DNA of 38,092 bases, from the IMG/VR virus record IMGVR_UViG_3300048591_000279, positions 1 through 38,092 of that record; one strand, 5' to 3'. The notes below the pieces were generated by a model. That model was not told the origin of the DNA. It worked only from the letters and a program-made list of their open reading frames with translations, and made no database searches. The translations under genes were made by a program, and so were the position numbers. The stretch is from a virus. Of this stretch, positions 8,477 through 38,092 are shown in pieces (positions within the stretch are counted from its first letter, which is position 1; each line of letters begins with the position of its first letter).

Positions 8477-8974
8477 TTAACATTTTTCAACTATGTGCAG
8501 TTTTAAATTCTCAATTTCGATAGCGTCAATAGTATCGTTAAATAAATTGCTTTCCGTCCCATCGGCTGCCTGTTTACCCCAATACATCCGATCCGTTTTG
8601 TCGTACACAAATTCAAGTTGATCGATGTACGGCGAACGTTTCAGGTATTTGAAAAACAGGTCCCATAACGGGTACAGGACTTTATCGAAGGTTTCAATCT
8701 GCCTTTCGCTGGCCATCCATTCAGGTCGCGTATCGGTGATAATGGCAAGGTTCAAACTCACGTCCCGGCCAGACAGCGTAACCTCTTCCTTAAAGTCCTG
8801 AAATAACGCGATAAGCGGGTATTTCTCGAACTTAAGGTTAACATTGGCCGACTTTTGCGATAGGATATTGATGATCTCCATCCTGTGCCCGTGTTCGTAA
8901 TAGCACGGCAATTCACTGGACATGCACGTTACCACGTCCCGGATAATGTCGACTATTGGGCGGTACTTGCTCAT
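8477..8974 (-). CDS. Probable tail terminator / head-tail joining protein
   Basis: 165 residues, alpha/beta, located between the connector adaptor and the tail tube protein, where tail terminator proteins are usually encoded. It contains an N-terminal helix (YRPIVDIIRDVVTCMSSELP), then strands and a motif with paired aromatic residues (LYPLWDLFFKYLKRSPYIDQ). The start overlaps the upstream stop as ATGA. The assignment is from gene order and size. Confidence 0.6.
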   Translation of the reverse strand: MSKYRPIVDIIRDVVTCMSSELPCYYEHGHRMEIINILSQKSANVNLKFEKYPLIALFQDFKEEVTLSGRDVSLNLAIITDTRPEWMASERQIETFDKVLYPLWDLFFKYLKRSPYIDQLEFVYDKTDRMYWGKQAADGTESNLFNDTIDAIEIENLKLHIVEKC

Positions 8975-9510
8975 ATATCAAATGCATTCATTGATCCAAT
9001 CTCGGTAAAAATCCATTCCGGGTAATCCGATTTATTCGCCATCAGGTAGTTATATGCCGATGGTTGTAATTCAGATTGTCCAGAGTACCCGTACAGTTCC
9101 CGCATCCGTCCCCATGCGTCCATGATCTTAACGTGAAGGTCTGCATTAAACGAGTTTTCATGCCTTAGTTTCACTTCACCGGATGCGCCGGGTAACGTAG
9201 CTTTGCAACGTTGGTACTGATAATAGACGTAATAAGCGACGAGGCTTACTTTGTCCGTATTTATTAGGCCGTTCCATTTCACCTTTTGATCCCGTCCGTT
9301 ATAAGATACCGTGTAATCTTTGCCGTTTATCAGGTCGTACAGTCGCCCGGATGCCTCCGTACTGGCTGCAACAAGGGTATACAATTCGTATCCTAACAGT
9401 GATTTCAGGATTTCCGGCTCGAACCGATCAATAAAGTTTGACAGGTCAGAGTTTGAGTTAACCGGGAGGTTGATCTCAAAGTTGAAATATGTACGGTCGA
9501 TCAGTGCCAT
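8971..9510 (-). CDS. Head-tail connector adaptor protein
   Basis: 179 residues, mostly helical. An N-terminal helical region (SNFIDRFEPEILKSLLGYEL) is followed by a central helix rich in tyrosine (SLVAYYVYYQYQRCKATLP). This is typical of the gp6-like adaptors that dock below the portal. Its position, two genes before the tail tube, agrees. The start overlaps the stop of the upstream 52-residue gene (TAATG). Confidence 0.6.
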   Translation of the reverse strand: MALIDRTYFNFEINLPVNSNSDLSNFIDRFEPEILKSLLGYELYTLVAASTEASGRLYDLINGKDYTVSYNGRDQKVKWNGLINTDKVSLVAYYVYYQYQRCKATLPGASGEVKLRHENSFNADLHVKIMDAWGRMRELYGYSGQSELQPSAYNYLMANKSDYPEWIFTEIGSMNAFDI

Positions 9511-9668
9511 TATTTGCTTCGTGGTTTACGTGGTTTTTTGACAGGCGCGGCGGTATCCGGTGCAGCAGCATAACCCTTGCGGATGAGTACCATTGCTACA
9601 CCGTCTGGGACTGGCCGGGTTTCCCCGGCCTTAAATCCCGCAAACGATCTATTAAACGTTACCAACAT
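9510..9668 (-). CDS. 52-residue capsid-region protein
   Basis: Small gene starting at the ATG at 9668-9666 and ending in a TAATG overlap with the next gene. The product begins MLVTFNRSFAGFKAGETRPV, continues with VALVIRKG-like residues (VAMVLIRKGYAAA) and ends in a basic tail (VKKPRKPRSK). Many phages have a short protein of this type (G..v.v....A..li..G.A) after the capsid gene. Coupling on the 3' side and full codon coverage support it as real. Confidence 0.75.
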   Translation of the reverse strand: MLVTFNRSFAGFKAGETRPVPDGVAMVLIRKGYAAAPDTAAPVKKPRKPRSK

Positions 9669-9680
9669 TTGCTATCGGTT

Positions 9681-10130
9681 TTAATTAGTCTTTTTCCAAA
9701 GGTGTAATTTGGTCCAGTCAATCGTAGTAACGTCACCGGAAGCATTTACAACCTCTAATTTTAGATGATTATAATAGCGGGTAGTGTCACCAAGCGGCAT
9801 AAGTATAGTCGTGTCGGCAGTGGTTGCCTTCCATGTGACCGTATTTCCCAGTTTTACCCATGTAGCGGGCAGAAACTTTGAGCCATACAGTTTAACGGTT
9901 GTGGCGTGCGCGCCCCCGGAAACGCTATCGAGATTCACCTGAAAGTCAATTGCAACGGGGTTTTCCTTGTTCAAATTCCACTGCATCCAAACGGTGGCAG
10001 CAGAGCCGACGGTGATATTGGTGTTATACTCCTTGTAGGTGTCGTTACCCAAAGAAAGGGTAGCGGACTGGCCAAAAGTGAAGCCGATCATCCCGATCAG
10101 CAACACGAAAAACAAGATTGCTTTTTTCAT
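9681..10130 (-). CDS. Exported beta-sandwich protein next to the capsid gene
   Basis: 149 residues. Residues 1-20 are a clear signal peptide (KK, then a hydrophobic core, then GFTFGQ with cleavage probably after the Gln or Gly). The mature part is Thr/Val/Trp-rich beta structure with no cysteines. It starts 3 nt after the major capsid stop, so it is cotranscribed with structural genes, yet it is predicted to leave the cytoplasm. Possible roles are a decoration protein, a receptor-masking or superinfection-exclusion factor, or an outer-membrane decoy. None is proven by sequence. Confidence 0.8.
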   Translation of the reverse strand: MKKAILFFVLLIGMIGFTFGQSATLSLGNDTYKEYNTNITVGSAATVWMQWNLNKENPVAIDFQVNLDSVSGGAHATTVKLYGSKFLPATWVKLGNTVTWKATTADTTILMPLGDTTRYYNHLKLEVVNASGDVTTIDWTKLHLWKKTN

Positions 10131-10133
10131 TGA

Positions 10134-11381
10134 TTAACCGTTTACAGGTTTGGTAATTGCGGCCAATGCGGCATTAATGTCGGTCACCTTCAGGAAGGCG
10201 GTCTTATTCAGTTCCTTCACCAGTAAGGCCATCCGCTGGTAGGCGCGGATAGTGATTGCGCCAGAGGTAAACTGTTTGTCGATGTACCCCATTTCAATAG
10301 TCAGGGACTCGCTATCGTAGATGGTTCCCCAGTTGGAATCACCAACCAGCATAGTACCCTTGTCTACCTGTGCGGATTCGATAACCCGTAGGCCGTCAAT
10401 CACTTTACCGTCTGCCGTTACGAACGGAGGCATGAGGTAAGAAGCAAAGTCGTTTTTTGCCCCTTTGGCGGCAATGGAATTGGCTTTGTTCATCAGCACA
10501 AAGTTGGGAGTAAATTTCCCGCCTTTGCCGTTGCTAATCTGCTCTGCAAGGATCATGGCCAAATCAAAGATATTGGCTGATTGCGGCAACCATACACCAT
10601 CCGTAGCAGCATAGGCTGCATGGTCAAACGTGGGAGCGTAAACACTGATCCCGTCCGATTGCGGAGCTGTACCGGTACCTTTCCATAGGTAATTATCAAC
10701 CTTCAGGCGGATATTCGTGGTAAGGAAATTCCGCAGCTCCTCGGCCATAAAGCCGACAAACTTCAACGATTCCTTCGATGCCGGGATACTGTCACCAATC
10801 TCCTCAAGCGGCAAAGTGCGCTCAATCCAAGTCAGTGCGGATTCCGCAAAGGCCCCATTCTCCAAACGTCCGGCGGCGTTACGGGTTGGCGATGCAACCT
10901 GTTCCTGATACCGGATGACATTGTTCATCTCCGGCGGCACGTTCACGTGACTGAACAGCGCACTCAAAACGGTTTCCATCGTGGCTTCCTGTTCCACGCC
11001 CGGCAATCTCAGCGCGGTGGTGTTACCACTCACGTCAGTGGTCAGTGCAATGGTCTTCCGGTCAATGTCAAACGAAAGTGAGCCAGATCCGTTTTTCACG
11101 ATCCGCTGCAGCTCGTCATTTTTCTCGGCCAAAGTTTCCTTCAGCGTTTTCAACTTACGGTCTCCACCGTTAATAAACTTCTGCATCTCGAGGCCCTGGG
11201 TCTCAATGGCAGTTGTGAGCGATGCAATGGTGTCAGCCTTTAATCCGGCCTCCTCCAGTTTTGCCGATAGTTCATCGGTCTTTAAGACCCCTTTCAGAGC
11301 CTCGCTTATTTCGAGCTTTATCATCGGCGTTAATTGGCCTTTGATCTGATCGAATAAGGCTTTTAATTCTTCTGGATTCAT
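10134..11381 (-). CDS. Major capsid protein (HK97 fold) with N-terminal scaffold domain
   Basis: 415 residues. Residues 1-~105 are a charged helical/coiled-coil delta (scaffold) domain. The rest has features of the HK97 fold: a long spine-helix region (IPASKESLKFVGFMAEELRN), an A-domain loop region (YLMPPFVTADGKVIDGLRVI) and a P-domain end (ITIRAYQRMALLVKELNKTAFLKV). The gene follows the protease and portal as expected; the protease presumably removes the delta domain after assembly. Confidence 0.92.
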   Translation of the reverse strand: MNPEELKALFDQIKGQLTPMIKLEISEALKGVLKTDELSAKLEEAGLKADTIASLTTAIETQGLEMQKFINGGDRKLKTLKETLAEKNDELQRIVKNGSGSLSFDIDRKTIALTTDVSGNTTALRLPGVEQEATMETVLSALFSHVNVPPEMNNVIRYQEQVASPTRNAAGRLENGAFAESALTWIERTLPLEEIGDSIPASKESLKFVGFMAEELRNFLTTNIRLKVDNYLWKGTGTAPQSDGISVYAPTFDHAAYAATDGVWLPQSANIFDLAMILAEQISNGKGGKFTPNFVLMNKANSIAAKGAKNDFASYLMPPFVTADGKVIDGLRVIESAQVDKGTMLVGDSNWGTIYDSESLTIEMGYIDKQFTSGAITIRAYQRMALLVKELNKTAFLKVTDINAALAAITKPVNG

Positions 11382-11384
11382 TTT

Positions 11385-12227
11385 TCAGATAAAATTAGTT
11401 AATAAAATTGCTCTTTTAATCTCGTCAGAAGTGAGCACGCCCGGCTTCTGGATTGTATCGCTTTTACCAGTGTCATCATCTGACGGCTGGTTTTCGATCG
11501 AAAGAGTAGGGGATAGTTCGTTAGCACCCCACAGCACGGCTGAATTTTCATACAGCTTAATTTCCTGTACCCACCAGAAATAGCCCATCTCATCGGCCTG
11601 TTCGCCGTTAATCAAATCCTTTCGGTGCTGTTCCCAGTTAGCAAATTCGGCCTTGTAATCTTTGTCATTTATGGCCAAAAGCAACTTAACGTATTGCAGC
11701 CCAATGGAGTGCTGTTTGACACGGCCTGCTTTGTAAAGGCTGTAAATCCGTTCGTCATCCTCTTTGCTCACATCGGATTCCATGACGATAACCCACGTCT
11801 GGCCATCCTTGTCGATACCGAGTTTGCGAATGTCCATCTTTTCGTAATAAACATCCACCACGTTCCCGATCTGATCCTTTATCGAACGGCCATGATCGGC
11901 CAGATGATAGATCAATCCTTTACTCTTTGGACCGCGCTCGCTGATTGACTTCTTTGCGCTGTCCGGCGACAAGACATCCTGCTGGCTATCCATCCACAGC
12001 GCAGCATTGGCAGCAATCTTTACCCGGATAACGCCGCCATCACCGGAGTCGGCCTTCGTGATAGGCTCTGACTTAACCGAATCCCCATCCTTTACCAGCG
12101 AGGTCGGATAGGCAAAGGCATCCGATTTGATCGGCATGGCGCACTTTTGAGCAATCAGATCCGATTTGTTCTGAACCAGAAAATCAAACAGTGCCTTACC
12201 TTGTATGTTGGCCGGTATGCGTATCAT
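11385..12227 (-). CDS. Prohead maturation protease (U35-type serine protease)
   Basis: 280 residues. It shows the HK97-type prohead protease pattern: a catalytic His candidate in YHLADHGRS (His108/His112), the nucleophile in KQHSIGLQY (Ser174, after His173) and the conserved downstream strand LYENSAVLWGANELSPT. It is placed between portal and capsid. The start ATG overlaps the stop of a 25-residue mini-gene as ATGA. It would cleave scaffold domains inside the procapsid. Confidence 0.85.
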   Translation of the reverse strand: MIRIPANIQGKALFDFLVQNKSDLIAQKCAMPIKSDAFAYPTSLVKDGDSVKSEPITKADSGDGGVIRVKIAANAALWMDSQQDVLSPDSAKKSISERGPKSKGLIYHLADHGRSIKDQIGNVVDVYYEKMDIRKLGIDKDGQTWVIVMESDVSKEDDERIYSLYKAGRVKQHSIGLQYVKLLLAINDKDYKAEFANWEQHRKDLINGEQADEMGYFWWVQEIKLYENSAVLWGANELSPTLSIENQPSDDDTGKSDTIQKPGVLTSDEIKRAILLTNFI

Positions 12228-12301
12228 TTGCGTATGATTTTGTTAGCCTTGATCTGCTTATCCTTTTCGGCCTTTATGGCCTTTATTTCTTGTGGTGTCA
12301 T
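12224..12301 (-). CDS. 25-residue Lys-rich mini-gene between portal and protease
   Basis: ATG at 12301-12299 overlaps the portal stop as ATGA, and its own TGA overlaps the protease ATG as ATGA, so it is fitted by 4-nt overlaps at both ends. The product is MTPQEIKAIKAEKDKQIKAN followed by KIIRK, a single basic amphipathic helix. It may be a real peptide or only a translational coupler carrying ribosomes from portal to protease. Confidence 0.65.
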   Translation of the reverse strand: MTPQEIKAIKAEKDKQIKANKIIRK

Positions 12302-13551
12302 ATCCCGAATTTTTGTAGTTCAGCCTTATATTGGTCAACCGTAATTGCACCGGCCATCAATGCCTTATCCAGCGCGGCGGTAAGTTGCATTAATGCCCCG
12401 GCGCGCTCTTTTTGATTCTCCTGGAATACCGGCAAATGGTCATATGTCATGTGAATAGTCCATGATTTGTCGGCGGTATTGAGTTTCCGATTTAACCCAT
12501 CAACCCATTCCTGAGCCTCCGGGATTATAGTGTTCTGGTACAATTGCCTTTCAGCCCTCAGCTTGTTGTCAAAGGTCACACCCTGGGCGATCATGTCATA
12601 AGGCACCCCGAAGCCCAGACAAAGGATTTCGGTATCGGCTTTACATTCTTCCAATAGCTTCAGCTTGTCGGCATCAATGGCCATCTGTTTCCAGTCCAGT
12701 GATAGCGATGTGATGATGATCTGGTATTGCGCTTTGGTCAACCCATAGCGGCGGTATTCATCCTGTAAATCTTTTTTATCCTCTTTCCGTAGTGGCAACG
12801 TTGAACCGATCCCATCCGTTGCCCGGTTGGTCAGAATACCAAGTGCCCCACGGTTTTCGATCAACACGTTACGCGCTTCATACGCTGCCCGGATATTTTT
12901 TACCGGACCCTGAAGGCTGGCCAGCGTTGGCATCCCCCAGTAATAGGATCGTTGGAATCCGTCAACCTTTGTCTCCTGCTGTGATATGGTTGAACAGTTC
13001 GACACGTTGGCCCGGTTCATGTGAAGTATGGCATCCTGATCAAACTCACGCTGCTGGTTATTCCAAATGTATGAATAGCGTGCATCGGAAGCGGTCTTAA
13101 GGAATGGCGGGATGGTGAGATTTTCTTTTATCCGGACGATCTCCGGGTTAATGGTAAACATCCCTTTCAGGCTCGACGGCATCCCTACCGGGTAAAGGAA
13201 GTTAAGAACCTCGTTACCGTATATCTCCCTGAAAAATTTGGTCTGCTGAAGGAACTCTTTTTGCGACTGAAGGTAGTTTGGGTTTCGCAGCACTTTCACT
13301 ATCGGCTCGTTATTGCTTACCTCTTTGCCGGTTGCATCCGACAGTATTTTCAGGCGCCCGTTGGCAAATGCGTTAACTTTCAGGCTTATGATCCCGTTAA
13401 CCTCCGGCAGCATGAAGTCATTCAGGAACTTGGTGCCGTCCCAGTTGAGCGATGACAGGCCAATACCGTAGAAAAATTGATCTCCGAATTTATCCGGAGT
13501 ATCAGTGGGCGTGAGTGATTTACTTGCAGACTTACGGCTAAAAATACCCAT
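12298..13551 (-). CDS. Portal protein (HK97 family)
   Basis: 417 residues from the ATG at 13551-13549 (MGIFSRKSASKSLTP); the frame extends 18 nt further up to a TTG, which I consider too weak. It has the typical portal core: LMPEVNGIISLKVNAFANG, SLKGMFTINPEIV, the conserved region FQRSYYWGMPTLASLQGPVK, and CLGFGVPYDMIAQGVTFDN. It forms the dodecameric gate at the capsid vertex. This is the first gene of the late block, preceded by a roughly 570-nt non-coding regulatory region. Confidence 0.92.
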   Translation of the reverse strand: MGIFSRKSASKSLTPTDTPDKFGDQFFYGIGLSSLNWDGTKFLNDFMLPEVNGIISLKVNAFANGRLKILSDATGKEVSNNEPIVKVLRNPNYLQSQKEFLQQTKFFREIYGNEVLNFLYPVGMPSSLKGMFTINPEIVRIKENLTIPPFLKTASDARYSYIWNNQQREFDQDAILHMNRANVSNCSTISQQETKVDGFQRSYYWGMPTLASLQGPVKNIRAAYEARNVLIENRGALGILTNRATDGIGSTLPLRKEDKKDLQDEYRRYGLTKAQYQIIITSLSLDWKQMAIDADKLKLLEECKADTEILCLGFGVPYDMIAQGVTFDNKLRAERQLYQNTIIPEAQEWVDGLNRKLNTADKSWTIHMTYDHLPVFQENQKERAGALMQLTAALDKALMAGAITVDQYKAELQKFGI

Positions 13552-13748
13552 GAGAACTATTTTCGTCAAAGTTACGGCATTGTTTTGATAGTCGCGTTAT
13601 TTTCAGGCAATTATTTTTAAGCGGTCCATATAAGAATAGCGGCGCAAATGTTAAAAGCCTGATTACCAAATATATCACAGCAATATTTTTTCCGTTGTAT
13701 TTTCAATCGGTTGGCATTCAACGCATTACCAGATTTTGTCACACGAAT

Positions 13749-15728: not shown

Positions 15729-15971
15729 TTATTTGATCTCAACAATCAAAACCTGCTTAAATCCGATCGCCTTAACGTCGGATACCCGGCTCTGGTACTT
15801 GAGATTTACGAAGTGTCCGGCATCGAATAACCGGAGCGTATCGCCGTTGATCTGGTAGTCACGGCAGAGGATTGTCCCATGATCGGCAAGGTTAACACAG
15901 TAACGCATCTGTATTTTCGGGCAGGTGCAACAGCCGGAAAGTACCAGCAGGAGAAAGAGTAGTTTTTTCAT
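15729..15971 (-). CDS. Small lipoprotein
   Basis: 80 residues. N-terminus MKKLLFLLLVLSGCC: the lipobox VLSGC places the lipidated Cys at 14. The mature ~66 residues contain three more cysteines and beta-like strands. It lies between TerS and the cassette array, so it could be expressed early. Candidates are a superinfection-exclusion lipoprotein or an outer spanin; the location far from the endolysin argues against the latter. Confidence 0.75.
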   Translation of the reverse strand: MKKLLFLLLVLSGCCTCPKIQMRYCVNLADHGTILCRDYQINGDTLRLFDAGHFVNLKYQSRVSDVKAIGFKQVLIVEIK

Positions 15972-18266: not shown

Positions 18267-18397
18267 CGTTTGTCCTCCACCCGTACCCATGCCAGCACCA
18301 TGTATCCGGGTCTTAATTGCTGTAACTCGGTTCGTGTCGCCCGGACGGTCTGCTGTGGCTGTCCGGGATATTGCAGGATAAAATCAAATCGTTCCAT
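18263..18397 (-). CDS. 44-residue hypothetical protein
   Basis: MERFDFILQYPGQPQQTVRA continuing to VRVEDKR. It overlaps the radical SAM gene end by 14 nt and the next start by ATGA. The coupling at both ends supports it despite its size. No motif recognised. Confidence 0.6.
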   Translation of the reverse strand: MERFDFILQYPGQPQQTVRATRTELQQLRPGYMVLAWVRVEDKR

Positions 18398-19187
18398 GTG
18401 GTGCCTCCTGAAAAATGTTGTAATCCCGGCCAATACTGGTAGATATTTCGATTATTGGTAACAGCTTCCGGATAGAATCTTTCCAGTAGATTTTGAAACC
18501 ATTGGCGTGTGCCAGCTTCGTAACGTTCACGAAAAAGTCGCGTAATTCTCCCGTGTAGGTGATCCGCTTACCGGACATCAATCCAATCTTATACAGGTCA
18601 CAAAACCCTGCCGTCTGCCCAATCATCCGGTAACTGGAATCAAAGTCCACAATCGGCTCAATGCTGGCCCATGTTTTGAACCCGGCATCATGAAGTTTTC
18701 GCATGGCTTCGATCCGTTCATCGTTCGTGCTGGCTCCTGGTTCCAGTTCATCATGGCCGGTGAGGGTGAAGCCAATGGCGACCTTTTGTTCATATCCTTT
18801 GGGTATTCCAAACATCAGTTTCAGTGCGCCATCTGCTATTTTGGTTAACACCTTAACCGGAATTCCGTGAGTATGGCACGATGATATTGCCGTCCACGTC
18901 ATACCGTATGTCTCGGGCAGAAGAGGATCTGTTGTGAACGAAAAGAAAACGCCATGCTTCTGAAGTTCTGGCTTATTTAAGTATATCTCGTGCGAAAATA
19001 TATTTAACGCATGACCTGTGTTTTTGAAACACTTTTTGAGCGTTGGCTTATCTCCGCCCATTACCCCGGCCAGAATGCCCTTTTTGCAATAGCAATAGGT
19101 ACACCTGTTGGAACACCCAACATAGAAGTTACACGCCCATTTTGCGTATTCAGCCGCTTTCCCTGTCGGTTGATAAATTGCTTTCAT
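18384..19187 (-). CDS. Radical SAM protein, spore photoproduct lyase-like
   Basis: 267 residues. CSNRCTYC gives Cys25, Cys29 and Cys32 (CxxxCxxC), the [4Fe-4S] cluster motif of radical SAM enzymes. Motifs along the barrel include FFSFTTDPLLPETYG, VAIGFTLTG and WASIEPIVD, typical of the SPL/Rv2578c-like group common in phages. It may act on DNA lesions or phage DNA modification; the substrate cannot be read from sequence. It starts ATGA-coupled to an upstream membrane peptide. Confidence 0.85.
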   Translation of the reverse strand: MKAIYQPTGKAAEYAKWACNFYVGCSNRCTYCYCKKGILAGVMGGDKPTLKKCFKNTGHALNIFSHEIYLNKPELQKHGVFFSFTTDPLLPETYGMTWTAISSCHTHGIPVKVLTKIADGALKLMFGIPKGYEQKVAIGFTLTGHDELEPGASTNDERIEAMRKLHDAGFKTWASIEPIVDFDSSYRMIGQTAGFCDLYKIGLMSGKRITYTGELRDFFVNVTKLAHANGFKIYWKDSIRKLLPIIEISTSIGRDYNIFQEAPHGTI

Positions 19188-30928: not shown

Positions 30929-31215
30929 TTCGTACCTCCACGTTTTATGACATATTTCATATAATTCGATTCAAATACCAACTCGTCTGGATAAGCCTTT
31001 CGTAACGTTTGGTTTACTTCGCCAAAATCCCGGCTCATTTCGATCACTTCCTCATGCACCTCGCTAATCTTTTCAGCGTTGTTTTTCAGTGCGAAGGAAT
31101 GCCAACCGAATATCAATACAATAAGCACAACAAACCCAGCCATGTAGAGTTGTAGTGTTTTGGCAACCATTGAATTTATCGTTTCGGCAATCGTTTGTTT
31201 TTCTTCTTCGCTCAT
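30925..31215 (-). CDS. Single-pass membrane protein with coiled coil
   Basis: 96 residues: N-terminal helix, transmembrane segment (LYMAGFVVLIVLIFGWHSF), then a periplasm-facing or cytoplasmic helix with charged residues (EEVIEMSRDFGEVNQTL). Could be an inner-membrane spanin or lysis regulator. ATGA overlaps on both sides. Confidence 0.6.
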   Translation of the reverse strand: MSEEEKQTIAETINSMVAKTLQLYMAGFVVLIVLIFGWHSFALKNNAEKISEVHEEVIEMSRDFGEVNQTLRKAYPDELVFESNYMKYVIKRGGTK

Positions 31216-31760
31216 GGCAGGATTTTTAATTGGTAAGTAATTAATTGAGTTGCATGACAGTTGCGCCCTTCGTCATCGGCTCCACCGTACCAACCGCCGC
31301 TAATCGTGTTGGCGGTGATCTGATCCGGATAGGATTTAACGATTGAATCATTTAGAAGCCATTTAACGCCGTTACGCGCGTCAATGGTAAGGTAGTACCA
31401 TTCATCCGGTTTAACGGCCTGTATTACGCCCATACGACCCGATTTAGACGGTGCTTCGCCGTTAAGCCACAGATAGTATCCGATTTCGAGCCGTTCTTTG
31501 TAGTGCCTCCAAACAATAGCGGCGCCGTCCTGATGGGGATTGAGTGCGCCCAAATAGATCAACTTCGACCAGTCGCCATCGCATTCCGGTCGCATTTGTG
31601 GATACAGGCAAGTTGAATCGAATTTTACCGCTATGTTCAGTACAGGGGTGTTTGTTGAACATTTGAAGTACGGCATAGGTGTACTTTTGTCAGGCTGTAC
31701 TGTGACTTTTTCGCAGGACAGGCAGGCTATAACCAGACAGATGGCGGTTAGTGATCTCAT
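31212..31760 (-). CDS. LamG/concanavalin-like lipoprotein
   Basis: 182 residues from MRSLTAICLVIACLSCEKVT at 31760 (ATGA with upstream). The lipobox offers Cys13 or Cys16. The rest is a beta-sandwich (jelly-roll) with aromatic loops (DGAAIVWRHYKERLEIGYYL; DEWYYLTIDARNGVKWLLND), typical of LamG-like carbohydrate or protein binding domains. Encoded between fibre and lysis genes, yet exported. It might block receptors on the lysing or infected cell. Confidence 0.75.
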   Translation of the reverse strand: MRSLTAICLVIACLSCEKVTVQPDKSTPMPYFKCSTNTPVLNIAVKFDSTCLYPQMRPECDGDWSKLIYLGALNPHQDGAAIVWRHYKERLEIGYYLWLNGEAPSKSGRMGVIQAVKPDEWYYLTIDARNGVKWLLNDSIVKSYPDQITANTISGGWYGGADDEGRNCHATQLITYQLKILP

Positions 31761-35843: not shown

Positions 35844-38092
35844 TTACAATGTTATGATTCGGTAAACAATGTATAAATCAATAGACCCGCCGCCGGCTGT
35901 TATGTCGGCCTGTGGTTTTAACAGTATAGGTTGATTATCCTTTGCTACTTCTGTGCCCAATGTAGCAGTAGCAAAAGTAGGCGCTATTATGGTTGAACCT
36001 GTATTGACTGCGTATTCTGTTATTACGATTTGGCCGTTAAGTGATTGATCTGCCACACCCCTTGCAAATAGATTTATTCCGGTGGCCGTAAAGGCTGATG
36101 ATGAATAGTTTACTCTTACAAAAGTTAGTGCACAGTCAACCACTACCGCCTTACCTGACCCTGGTGCTGCTATTACGGTCAATGGAACCTCATAGGCGTT
36201 TTTTATTGAATCGTTTGAATATGATTTTTTTACCGAGTAAATCGGCTCTATCGCGACCCCATTAACCTGAAATCCAGTTGTGGCGTTAACTGTTGGTACG
36301 GTTAACTTATGAGCAGATGCGTTATATTGATAATAAGTTGCATCGTATTTTATTCCCTGAGGACTGGCTGTTGCGGCGATGAATACCGGAAAACATTGCG
36401 AATCACCGGTTTCCGATGCGGTAGCCACGGTAGTACCAATCTGTGCAGTTCCGGTTGTGTTTTGGTTCAGCGTAGGGAAATCACCGGCTGATGCTATACT
36501 TAATACTCCGGTTGTGGTAGTGTTTTTCAGTATCCCTGTTCCAAGTGCGCCTAATGCCTGTTCGTTTGTTAGCGTGGCATTGGCTGTTTGGGTTATGTAT
36601 GTCGCATCAACTGGAGCGCCGGCGGTAAGTGATTCAAACTTATCCCTAACGGCATCCTCTCCGGCCGGACGGTTTGAGTCTTTCCAAGTTGTCGCATTAT
36701 ACGCCCGCTTCGGTTGCTGAATTGAATCATAGACGTTTAGCCTATGTTCGATGTTTACAATATTTAGTTCGGTTGTTAATTCAACGGAATTGCCAAATTT
36801 CAAACGAACTGACCCATCCGATGGATTGTATAAAATCCCCTGCTTGCTAAAGTCGGAATTACCAAGTACCCAGTATCCGGCATTGGTTCCGGATGAAACA
36901 TACCCCATTTTGGTGTAATAGGCATTTCCGAATCCCAAAAATTCATCCCGCTGTATCCGTAAATCGGTTTTCAATGCCGCACTATCTCCGGTATTGTAGT
37001 ATAGAAACGATGTTGCCCCGGCAAAGGCAGTACCGTTTTTGTATTGCAGTTGGTTATCTGATCCGCCCGGCGCCCCGGTTGAAAGCGATTCGATCTTGTC
37101 TCGAAACGCGTCCTCCGATACAGCCCGCTTTGAATTTTTAAAAGTAGTTGCATTGTACGCCCTAAGTGCAACCAAAACAGAGTCATCTGAATTAATTACC
37201 CCGCCAAAATAATGATCGGTTATATTCAAGTCGCCATAAGTTGCCGTATTCGACCCATGCCCGACAGCACTATTTCCAATGACAATCTCATTCTGCTGGT
37301 TTTCCAATAGGCTCACTGTATTGTGACCAATGTATAGCCCACCGTTTGGCGAAGTGAGTGGATTGGTCCCGACAAAGTATTTCCCAGCTGAATTACCTAT
37401 CATGATGTTCGAGGTGCCGTCATTATTGGACTGCCCGGCAAACCCACCTATCATTATATTGGAAAATCCAGATTTTGTGCTATTCCCAGCCATACGCCCC
37501 ACAAATGTATTAACGTCCCCAGACGTTATCGAATCGCCAGCCCCGATCCCAAACGTGGTATTCTGACTGCCCTGATAAATATCGGTCGGTGAAGTGACTT
37601 GTTGTCCACCACTTCCAGCGAATAGGTTCTTTCCAAATGATCCGGTTGTTTTATTTGTTGACAGCAAAGCGGTATCGGCTCCGGAGGTGTAAAATGGCGA
37701 ATTGCCAATGCTGTGTATCCCGTTAAAAATAGGTATCCTGTTAACTGTTCCGGTTATGGTTGGCCGCGATAAAGTGTCCAGATCGTATTTAGTGGCCAGC
37801 GTGGCCAGCGTATCAGTAAAATGCAACAGCGTAGCGGAGTCAGCTGCATAGATTGGATCGGTTTCCACCCTCAGAAAAGTGAGCGTGTCCAAATCGTATT
37901 TTGTTGCGATCTGGCTAACCGTGTCCCCATAATGCAGTATATTGGCTGAATCTCCGGCGTAGATTGGATCGGTTTCCACCCTCAAAAAAGTGAGCGTGTC
38001 CAAATCGTATTTTGTTGCGATCTGGCTAACCGTGTCCCCATAATGCAGTATATTGGCTGAATCTCCGGCGTAGATTGGATCGGTTTAGATCG
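35844..38092 (-). CDS. Tail fibre protein, C-terminal part (gene crosses the window ends)
   Basis: Open to the right window end and continuing at base 410 down to 1. Two complete copies (37858-38079) and one diverged copy of the 37-residue repeat come first. Next are YadA-head-like repeats (SNIMIGGFAGQS, SNIMIGNSAGK, NTFVGRMAGNS), three related NATTFKNSKRAVSEDAFRDK-type modules, and a beta-rich C-terminal domain. It probably makes a trimeric fibre that binds the host surface. No S74-type chaperone domain seen. Confidence 0.85.
37858..38079 (-). repeat. Two 111-bp repeat units at the right end
   Basis: Units at 37858-37968 and 37969-38079. The first matches 1-111; the second has a single G-to-A difference (CTCAAAAAAG for CTCAGAAAAG). 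A third unit begins at 38080 and is cut short. Confidence 0.95.
38087..38092. other. Possible adapter remnant
   Basis: The repeat match stops after CGGTTT at 38086 and the window ends AGATCG, the first six bases of the standard Illumina adapter (AGATCGGAAGAGC). Confidence 0.6.

Follow-up and report, generated by a model that had tools for sequence, protein, structure and literature searches.

A predicted exported jelly-roll protein encoded directly behind the major capsid gene in diverse phages

The viral sequence analyzed here (IMG/VR record IMGVR_UViG_3300048591_000279, positions 1 to 38,092, hereafter the window) encodes, directly behind its major capsid gene, a 149-aa jelly-roll protein (positions 9681 to 10130, minus strand, ATG at 10130), whose predicted export is well supported by a Q-rule signal peptidase site, by conservation, and by purifying selection. 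We lean toward the reading that this gene encodes an exported capsid-surface protein, of the decoration or cement type, whose encounter with the particle takes place outside the cytoplasm. We do so because of the capsid linkage, the conserved signal, and the purifying selection; because signal-peptide proteins are marked as virion components by MS/MS in phages phi10:1, phi19:1, and phi39:1; because Pan5 gp07 is annotated as a cement protein and the model of relative L115 matches cement protein folds; and because two signal-less relatives (L092 and L144) share the slot, while another (L004) fuses the domain to fiber-like repeats.

The N-terminus of the product, MKKAILFFVLLIGMIGFTFG^QSATLS, reads as a type I signal peptide with Gln at +1: residues 1 to 20 (DNA 10071 to 10130) form the predicted signal, and the mature domain begins at Gln21 (DNA 9681 to 10070). 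Signal peptides were predicted with a rule-based scan of our own making rather than with SignalP; applied to 978 antisense ORFs to gauge its chance rate, the scan made this same call in two. By the same scan, the positive n-region, hydrophobic core, and small −3/−1 residues of the Q-rule SPase I class are all present, as is the glutamine, which recurs family-wide. The signal peptide is preserved throughout the family, including in relatives whose overall identity falls to 22 to 30%. Across 11 pairs, pN/pS in the mature domain lies at ~0.02 to 0.3, mostly near 0.1, indicative of purifying selection; in several pairs, the signal sequence is free to vary, with hydrophobicity and Gln preserved. 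The sequence-only reading had placed an export signal on the gene 3 nt past the capsid stop, and the low chance rate and retention in relatives confirm it; chance or a miscalled start as the source of the signal is ruled out by the false-positive rate, conservation, and selection.

The whole late block of the window, including the exported gene, lies on the minus strand. Its head genes run in the order portal (12298 to 13569; PF04860, E = 1e-24), probable prohead protease (11385 to 12227; assigned by position and synteny, with a weak PF04586 match at E = 0.038 that misses the cut-off), HK97-fold major capsid protein (10134 to 11381; PF05065, E = 2e-18; phrog_10), exported gene, a small 52-aa ORF (MLVTFNRSFAGFKAG..., 9510 to 9668), and the next head-cassette gene (179 aa, 8971 to 9510; syntenic with phi19:1 gp090, a structural protein detected by MS/MS). 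Only 3 nt (TCA) separate the end of the capsid ORF at 10134 from the ATG of the exported gene, and adjacency to the major capsid gene, a feature of decoration proteins, is found family-wide. Flavobacterium Lillamyvirus and Cellulophaga phi19:1 show the identical order minus the exported gene, so it represents an addition to the capsid cassette. The 52-aa ORF corresponds by position to the small post-capsid gene of the Flavobacterium and Cellulophaga phages that lack the exported gene; that such small ORFs are the exported gene minus its signal is ruled out, as the window has both side by side. The nearest isolate relatives of the window capsid protein infect Flavobacterium and Tenacibaculum, with weaker ones infecting Cellulophaga and Salinibacter, and members of the exported family are present in Pedobacter and Chitinophagaceae genomes.

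As a direct query, the window protein returned nothing convincing from Pfam, PHROGs, PDB sequences, or annotated phages, and its relatives were reached via viral contigs first and then via a family profile; no entry in Pfam, NCBIfam, or PHROGs covers the family. An identical protein occurs on two viral contigs. More distantly, L004 contains a relative that is 27% identical to the window protein; the L010 relative is 37% identical to that of L004, and both lie directly behind the capsid gene. L004 has two family genes in tandem in this position; these and the L010 gene all encode signal peptides. The first L004 copy fuses the exported domain to fiber-like repeats in a 619-aa protein (L004:4140-5999) that could be a head fiber. 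Among 60 contigs picked by capsid similarity alone, a signal-peptide gene lies ≤1.8 kb behind the capsid gene in six, with Gln at +1 in all six; comparison of the window group with those relatives gave an hhalign probability of 97% (E = 5e-11), the signal peptide being part of both profiles.

A profile of the jelly-roll domain recovered 60 loci, 56 viral and 4 genomic (including a Pedobacter zeae prophage, L147, and a Chitinophagaceae MAG). Of the 60, 52 begin with a signal peptide whose cleavage site bears Gln, called by the scan in 50 and by eye in L131 and L132, and in another five (L103, L109, L124, L125, and L140) the Q-rule signal is internal, the ORF being fused in frame with a small capsid-cassette ORF. 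Signal peptides are absent from two relatives that occupy this slot: L092, with 44% identity to the query L060, and L144 (L144:5911-6273, record G020, capsid-adjacent). The phage of the latter encodes a 1452-aa fiber-sized protein with a Q-rule signal. L143, probably not a true relative, was left out. Clustering at 60% identity groups the 66 compared sequences into 34 clusters, of which a few consist of non-signal members, and these conservation counts take in related phages.

Linkage to the capsid gene is near universal: in nearly all 60 loci, the exported gene lies directly behind it or one small ORF away. An HK97-type capsid gene is found 2 to 345 nt upstream on the same strand in 49 of the 60, and the loci outside these mostly have an unassigned capsid-sized gene upstream or abut a contig edge. 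Such a capsid-sized gene is 11 to 87 nt upstream in L117, L126, L144, L147, and L149; the capsid gene is 0.5 to 1.2 kb off in L131, L134, and L148, and the capsid match is on the opposite strand in L133. This linkage led us to reject a host-derived moron as the source of the gene. Among the 10 relatives with whole or nearly whole genomes, the capsid-linked gene and large tail-end genes are the main carriers of Q-rule signals. A sample of 395 genomes from the Pedobacter phylum yielded matches in five (one being the seed), of which L177 and L178 carry Q-rule signals and the weaker matches L179 and L180 do not. One family member, L146 (SSFP01000025.1), lies on a contig binned as Polynucleobacter; judging from its Q-rule signal, this contig may be a Bacteroidota phage sequence binned in error, and among 299 genomes of the bin's phylum, the seed was the only match.

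Several loci have unusual architectures. Fusions of the small capsid-cassette ORF with the exported domain occur at L103:5683-6342, L109:5680-6354, L124:5728-6378, and L140:5797-6435; the L109 fusion has no good internal start, so its product may be a single polypeptide across the membrane. Separately, proteins that are, or occupy the position of, the capsid protein in L109 (4116-5603), L124 (4246-5691), and L177 (reverse complement 302-1387) have, close to the N-terminus, a strongly hydrophobic stretch resembling a membrane segment, as though prohead assembly took place at the membrane.

AlphaFold models of the window protein (pLDDT 73) and of relative L115 (pLDDT 87.5) are both jelly-rolls. 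L115 matches the cement proteins of Bordetella phage BPP-1 (3j4u; VIA Z 8.5, 105 aligned, rmsd 2.9) and Helicobacter phage KHP40 (7dou; Z 8.0, 100 aligned, rmsd 3.0), both of which fall outside the top 50 for the window's own, pLDDT 73 model. These cement proteins are small jelly-rolls similar in size to the exported protein, but no sequence similarity to the family was found and the fold match is unspecific; we know of no export signal in either. The best solved match of both models is XepA, the exported protein of PBSX (6i56; Z 9.3 and 10.6), and further VIA matches include GOLD domains and carbohydrate-binding modules. As these score equal to or higher than the cement proteins, Z values of 8 to 10 are no proof of shared function, and the modeled jelly-roll, a widespread fold, fits a decoration protein without being specific to one. 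XepA is, like the window protein, an exported phage protein, but it is described in the available part of its report (PMC6834076) as a two-domain pentamer from the lytic cassette of a Bacillus prophage, a gene context unlike that of the window.

The sequence-only reading held export to be hard to reconcile with capsid assembly in the cytoplasm, an objection to which the Cellulophaga phages offer a likely answer: GenBank marks in them ten tail-end proteins with signal peptides as virion-detected by MS/MS (phi10:1 gp091 to gp094, phi19:1 gp101 to gp104, and phi39:1 gp25 and gp26). Gln occupies +1 in nine of the ten, as judged by eye for gp101, gp104, and phi39:1 gp25, which the scan had assigned otherwise; the phi10:1 and phi19:1 adhesins are near-identical, such that the ten cases are not independent. 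The 37 other MS/MS-marked proteins of four Cellulophaga phages, including portal, capsid, and tail-tube proteins and the phi46:1 fiber, have no signal peptide. These adhesins and pectate lyases share a phage-encoded signal peptide with the window protein and themselves carry a virion mark, but they are tail-end rather than capsid proteins, which counts against the capsid-surface reading, and they are not known to be homologous to the capsid-linked family. The MS/MS mark could, in principle, also reflect a co-purified exported protein.

In the Pseudanabaena phage Pan5, gp07 (UXO94049), deposited as "cement protein," is a homologue encoded directly behind the capsid gene and, like the window protein, has a Q-rule signal; it matches relative L060 (tblastn, 7e-5), that is, through relatives and not from the window protein directly. 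The available portion of the Pan5 paper describes annotation by BLASTp, HHpred, and AlphaFold/DALI, along with mass spectrometry, and contains no mention of a signal peptide on gp07 (PMC9837993). A PDB search with the Pan5 capsid protein for a solved capsid structure returned one weak capsid-protein match only. Pan5 has several Q-rule signals (L089:5945-6346; L182, ON968456 20917-22086 and 44013-44495), including those on the cement protein and a heparin lyase, which is unexpected for a cyanophage.

Phage genes with Q-rule signals have themselves been reported. In the accessible text on Porphyromonas gingivalis phages (PMC10367356), genes annotated without function bear such signals and are suggested to modify the outer membrane, and capsid-protein signal peptides are thought to be cleaved off by the prohead protease. 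Like the window gene, these encode a type I signal with Gln at +1 suited to host secretion; for five of them, that text gives no function, capsid linkage, or virion link, whereas the window gene sits in a capsid cassette and belongs to a wide family. Across the phylum, the share of Gln at +1 is ~71%, and pyroglutamate at Q-rule termini stabilizes exported proteins (PMC10653852), which could plausibly benefit a component on the virion exterior. These two papers were the only relevant ones in the literature searched on signal peptides in Bacteroidota virion proteins, and no report of capsid linkage or a virion role for phage Q-rule genes was found there; the novelty would lie in the combination of a decoration protein with a host export signal.

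Under the capsid-surface reading, a single late message would probably serve the translation of both the major capsid protein and the exported protein, and the latter would be exported by the host Sec system and cut by signal peptidase I before Gln21. Host glutaminyl cyclase would probably then convert the new N-terminus to pyroglutamate, shielding it from aminopeptidases, and the jelly-roll domain would wait in the periplasm until, at lysis, particles assembled in the cytoplasm pass through and it binds the outside of finished heads. The tail-end fibers and lyases of these phages, including the window fiber, appear to take the same route. Both the presence of the family in the virion and its meeting with the head at lysis are what we infer. 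Late attachment would not be unusual in its own right, given that other phages have decoration proteins and fibers able to attach to completed particles. Export ahead of attachment would be unusual, and no decoration protein is known to us to join heads once exported.

That the family accompanies the capsid gene in phages that otherwise differ greatly is expected of a capsid partner but not required of a cell-surface decoy, and this linkage bears on two alternatives in which the protein never joins the virion. One, raised by the sequence-only reading, has the protein remain on or around the infected cell, covering receptors or acting as a decoy and limiting superinfection or the loss of progeny on debris, with the post-capsid position serving only high-level production. 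Its Q-rule export signal, the resemblance of jelly-rolls to carbohydrate-binding modules, and the export signal on a fiber that should bind the receptor all suit such a blocker; besides the near-absolute linkage, signal-less relatives in the same slot and the MS/MS-marked adhesins with signal peptides speak against it, as does the absence of similarity to known exclusion proteins. A check of the 9681-10130 protein for Cor/Llp-type exclusion found no lipobox and no match to Cor or Llp, and the lipoprotein at 15729 to 15971 reached only E = 0.18 against Cor. We therefore consider a decoy or blocker possible but unlikely, and less supported than an exported capsid-surface protein. We also think it improbable that the protein is an exported effector with no part in the virion, for instance one that acts as an adhesin or binds polysaccharide and so changes the cell surface or its surroundings, the capsid linkage then reflecting late high expression or transfer as a shared cassette. 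The suggested outer-membrane role of the P. gingivalis phage genes, in the text available (PMC10367356), would favor it; yet a loose coupling through expression would permit other late sites, whereas the gene is nearly always post-capsid, and in four lineages it is fused with the small capsid-cassette ORF.

A third alternative keeps the protein on the capsid and dispenses with export: it would stay in the cytoplasm as a conventional decoration protein, its hydrophobic N-terminus being, for example, hidden within the capsid or cleaved off by the phage protease. Position and fold suit it, L092 and L144 do without a signal, and removal by the prohead protease is what the available text proposes for the capsid-protein signals of P. 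gingivalis phages (PMC10367356). A signal peptidase site with Gln at +1 has nevertheless been conserved across the 34 clusters (apart from the few non-signal ones), and the signal changes freely in several pairs in which only hydrophobicity and Gln stay, making this alternative, in our estimation, quite improbable.

Beyond this one family, occurrence of the capsid-linked export arrangement in dozens of diverse phages suggests that some outer-shell parts leave the host cytoplasm before the particle is complete. Tailed-phage particles are, in the textbook view, assembled entirely in the cytoplasm; the conserved capsid-linked signal and the virion-marked signal-peptide proteins point to a second assembly compartment. 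On the wider proposition we are almost evenly divided, leaning slightly against: that many Bacteroidota phages finish their virions outside the cytoplasm, with the jelly-roll protein and tail-end adhesins and lyases following the host pathway of Sec, signal peptidase I, and glutaminyl cyclase, being kept in the periplasm with pyroglutamate termini, and joining the cytoplasm-assembled particle at lysis. If true, virion proteins should bear pyroglutamate N-termini, host secretion and glutaminyl cyclase would become factors in phage production, and the Q-rule signal would offer a simple mark for surface and receptor-binding proteins in unannotated gut and aquatic Bacteroidota phages.

Three further export signals in the window, all on the minus strand, had been grouped with that of the capsid-linked gene as four exported proteins in one phage. 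All four signals exist, but they are of two kinds, two Q-rule and two lipoprotein, so that one common purpose for all four is unlikely. The N-terminal part of the tail-end fiber (1 to 410) does start with an export signal, MRKIALLFIMAGLTACAIG^QQN; the scan called it a lipoprotein (TAC) and its Gln site, AIG^Q, comes from inspection by eye, making its class less certain. Lipoboxes, an export class apart from the Q-rule set, are present as proposed in the 80-aa protein at 15729 to 15971 (MKKLLFLLLVLSG^C, lipobox LSG^C) and in the 182-aa protein adjoining the lysis genes at 31212 to 31760 (MRSLTAICLVIACLS^C, lipobox CLS^C), although the LamG likeness claimed for the latter finds no support from Pfam or PHROGs.

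The window edge cuts the fiber gene within near-identical repeats of ~37 residues, and its probable C-terminal part (35844 to 38092, minus strand), with the same repeats, runs off the other end; the genome is probably circular or permuted, the record having been cut in the fiber repeat. Simple joining of the ends leaves the fiber out of frame and a search of the window ends found no end repeat, which makes it probable that both ends fall within collapsed repeats. Elsewhere in the window, a 267-aa protein (18384 to 19187) with the cysteine cluster CSNRCTYCYC resembles a radical SAM enzyme.
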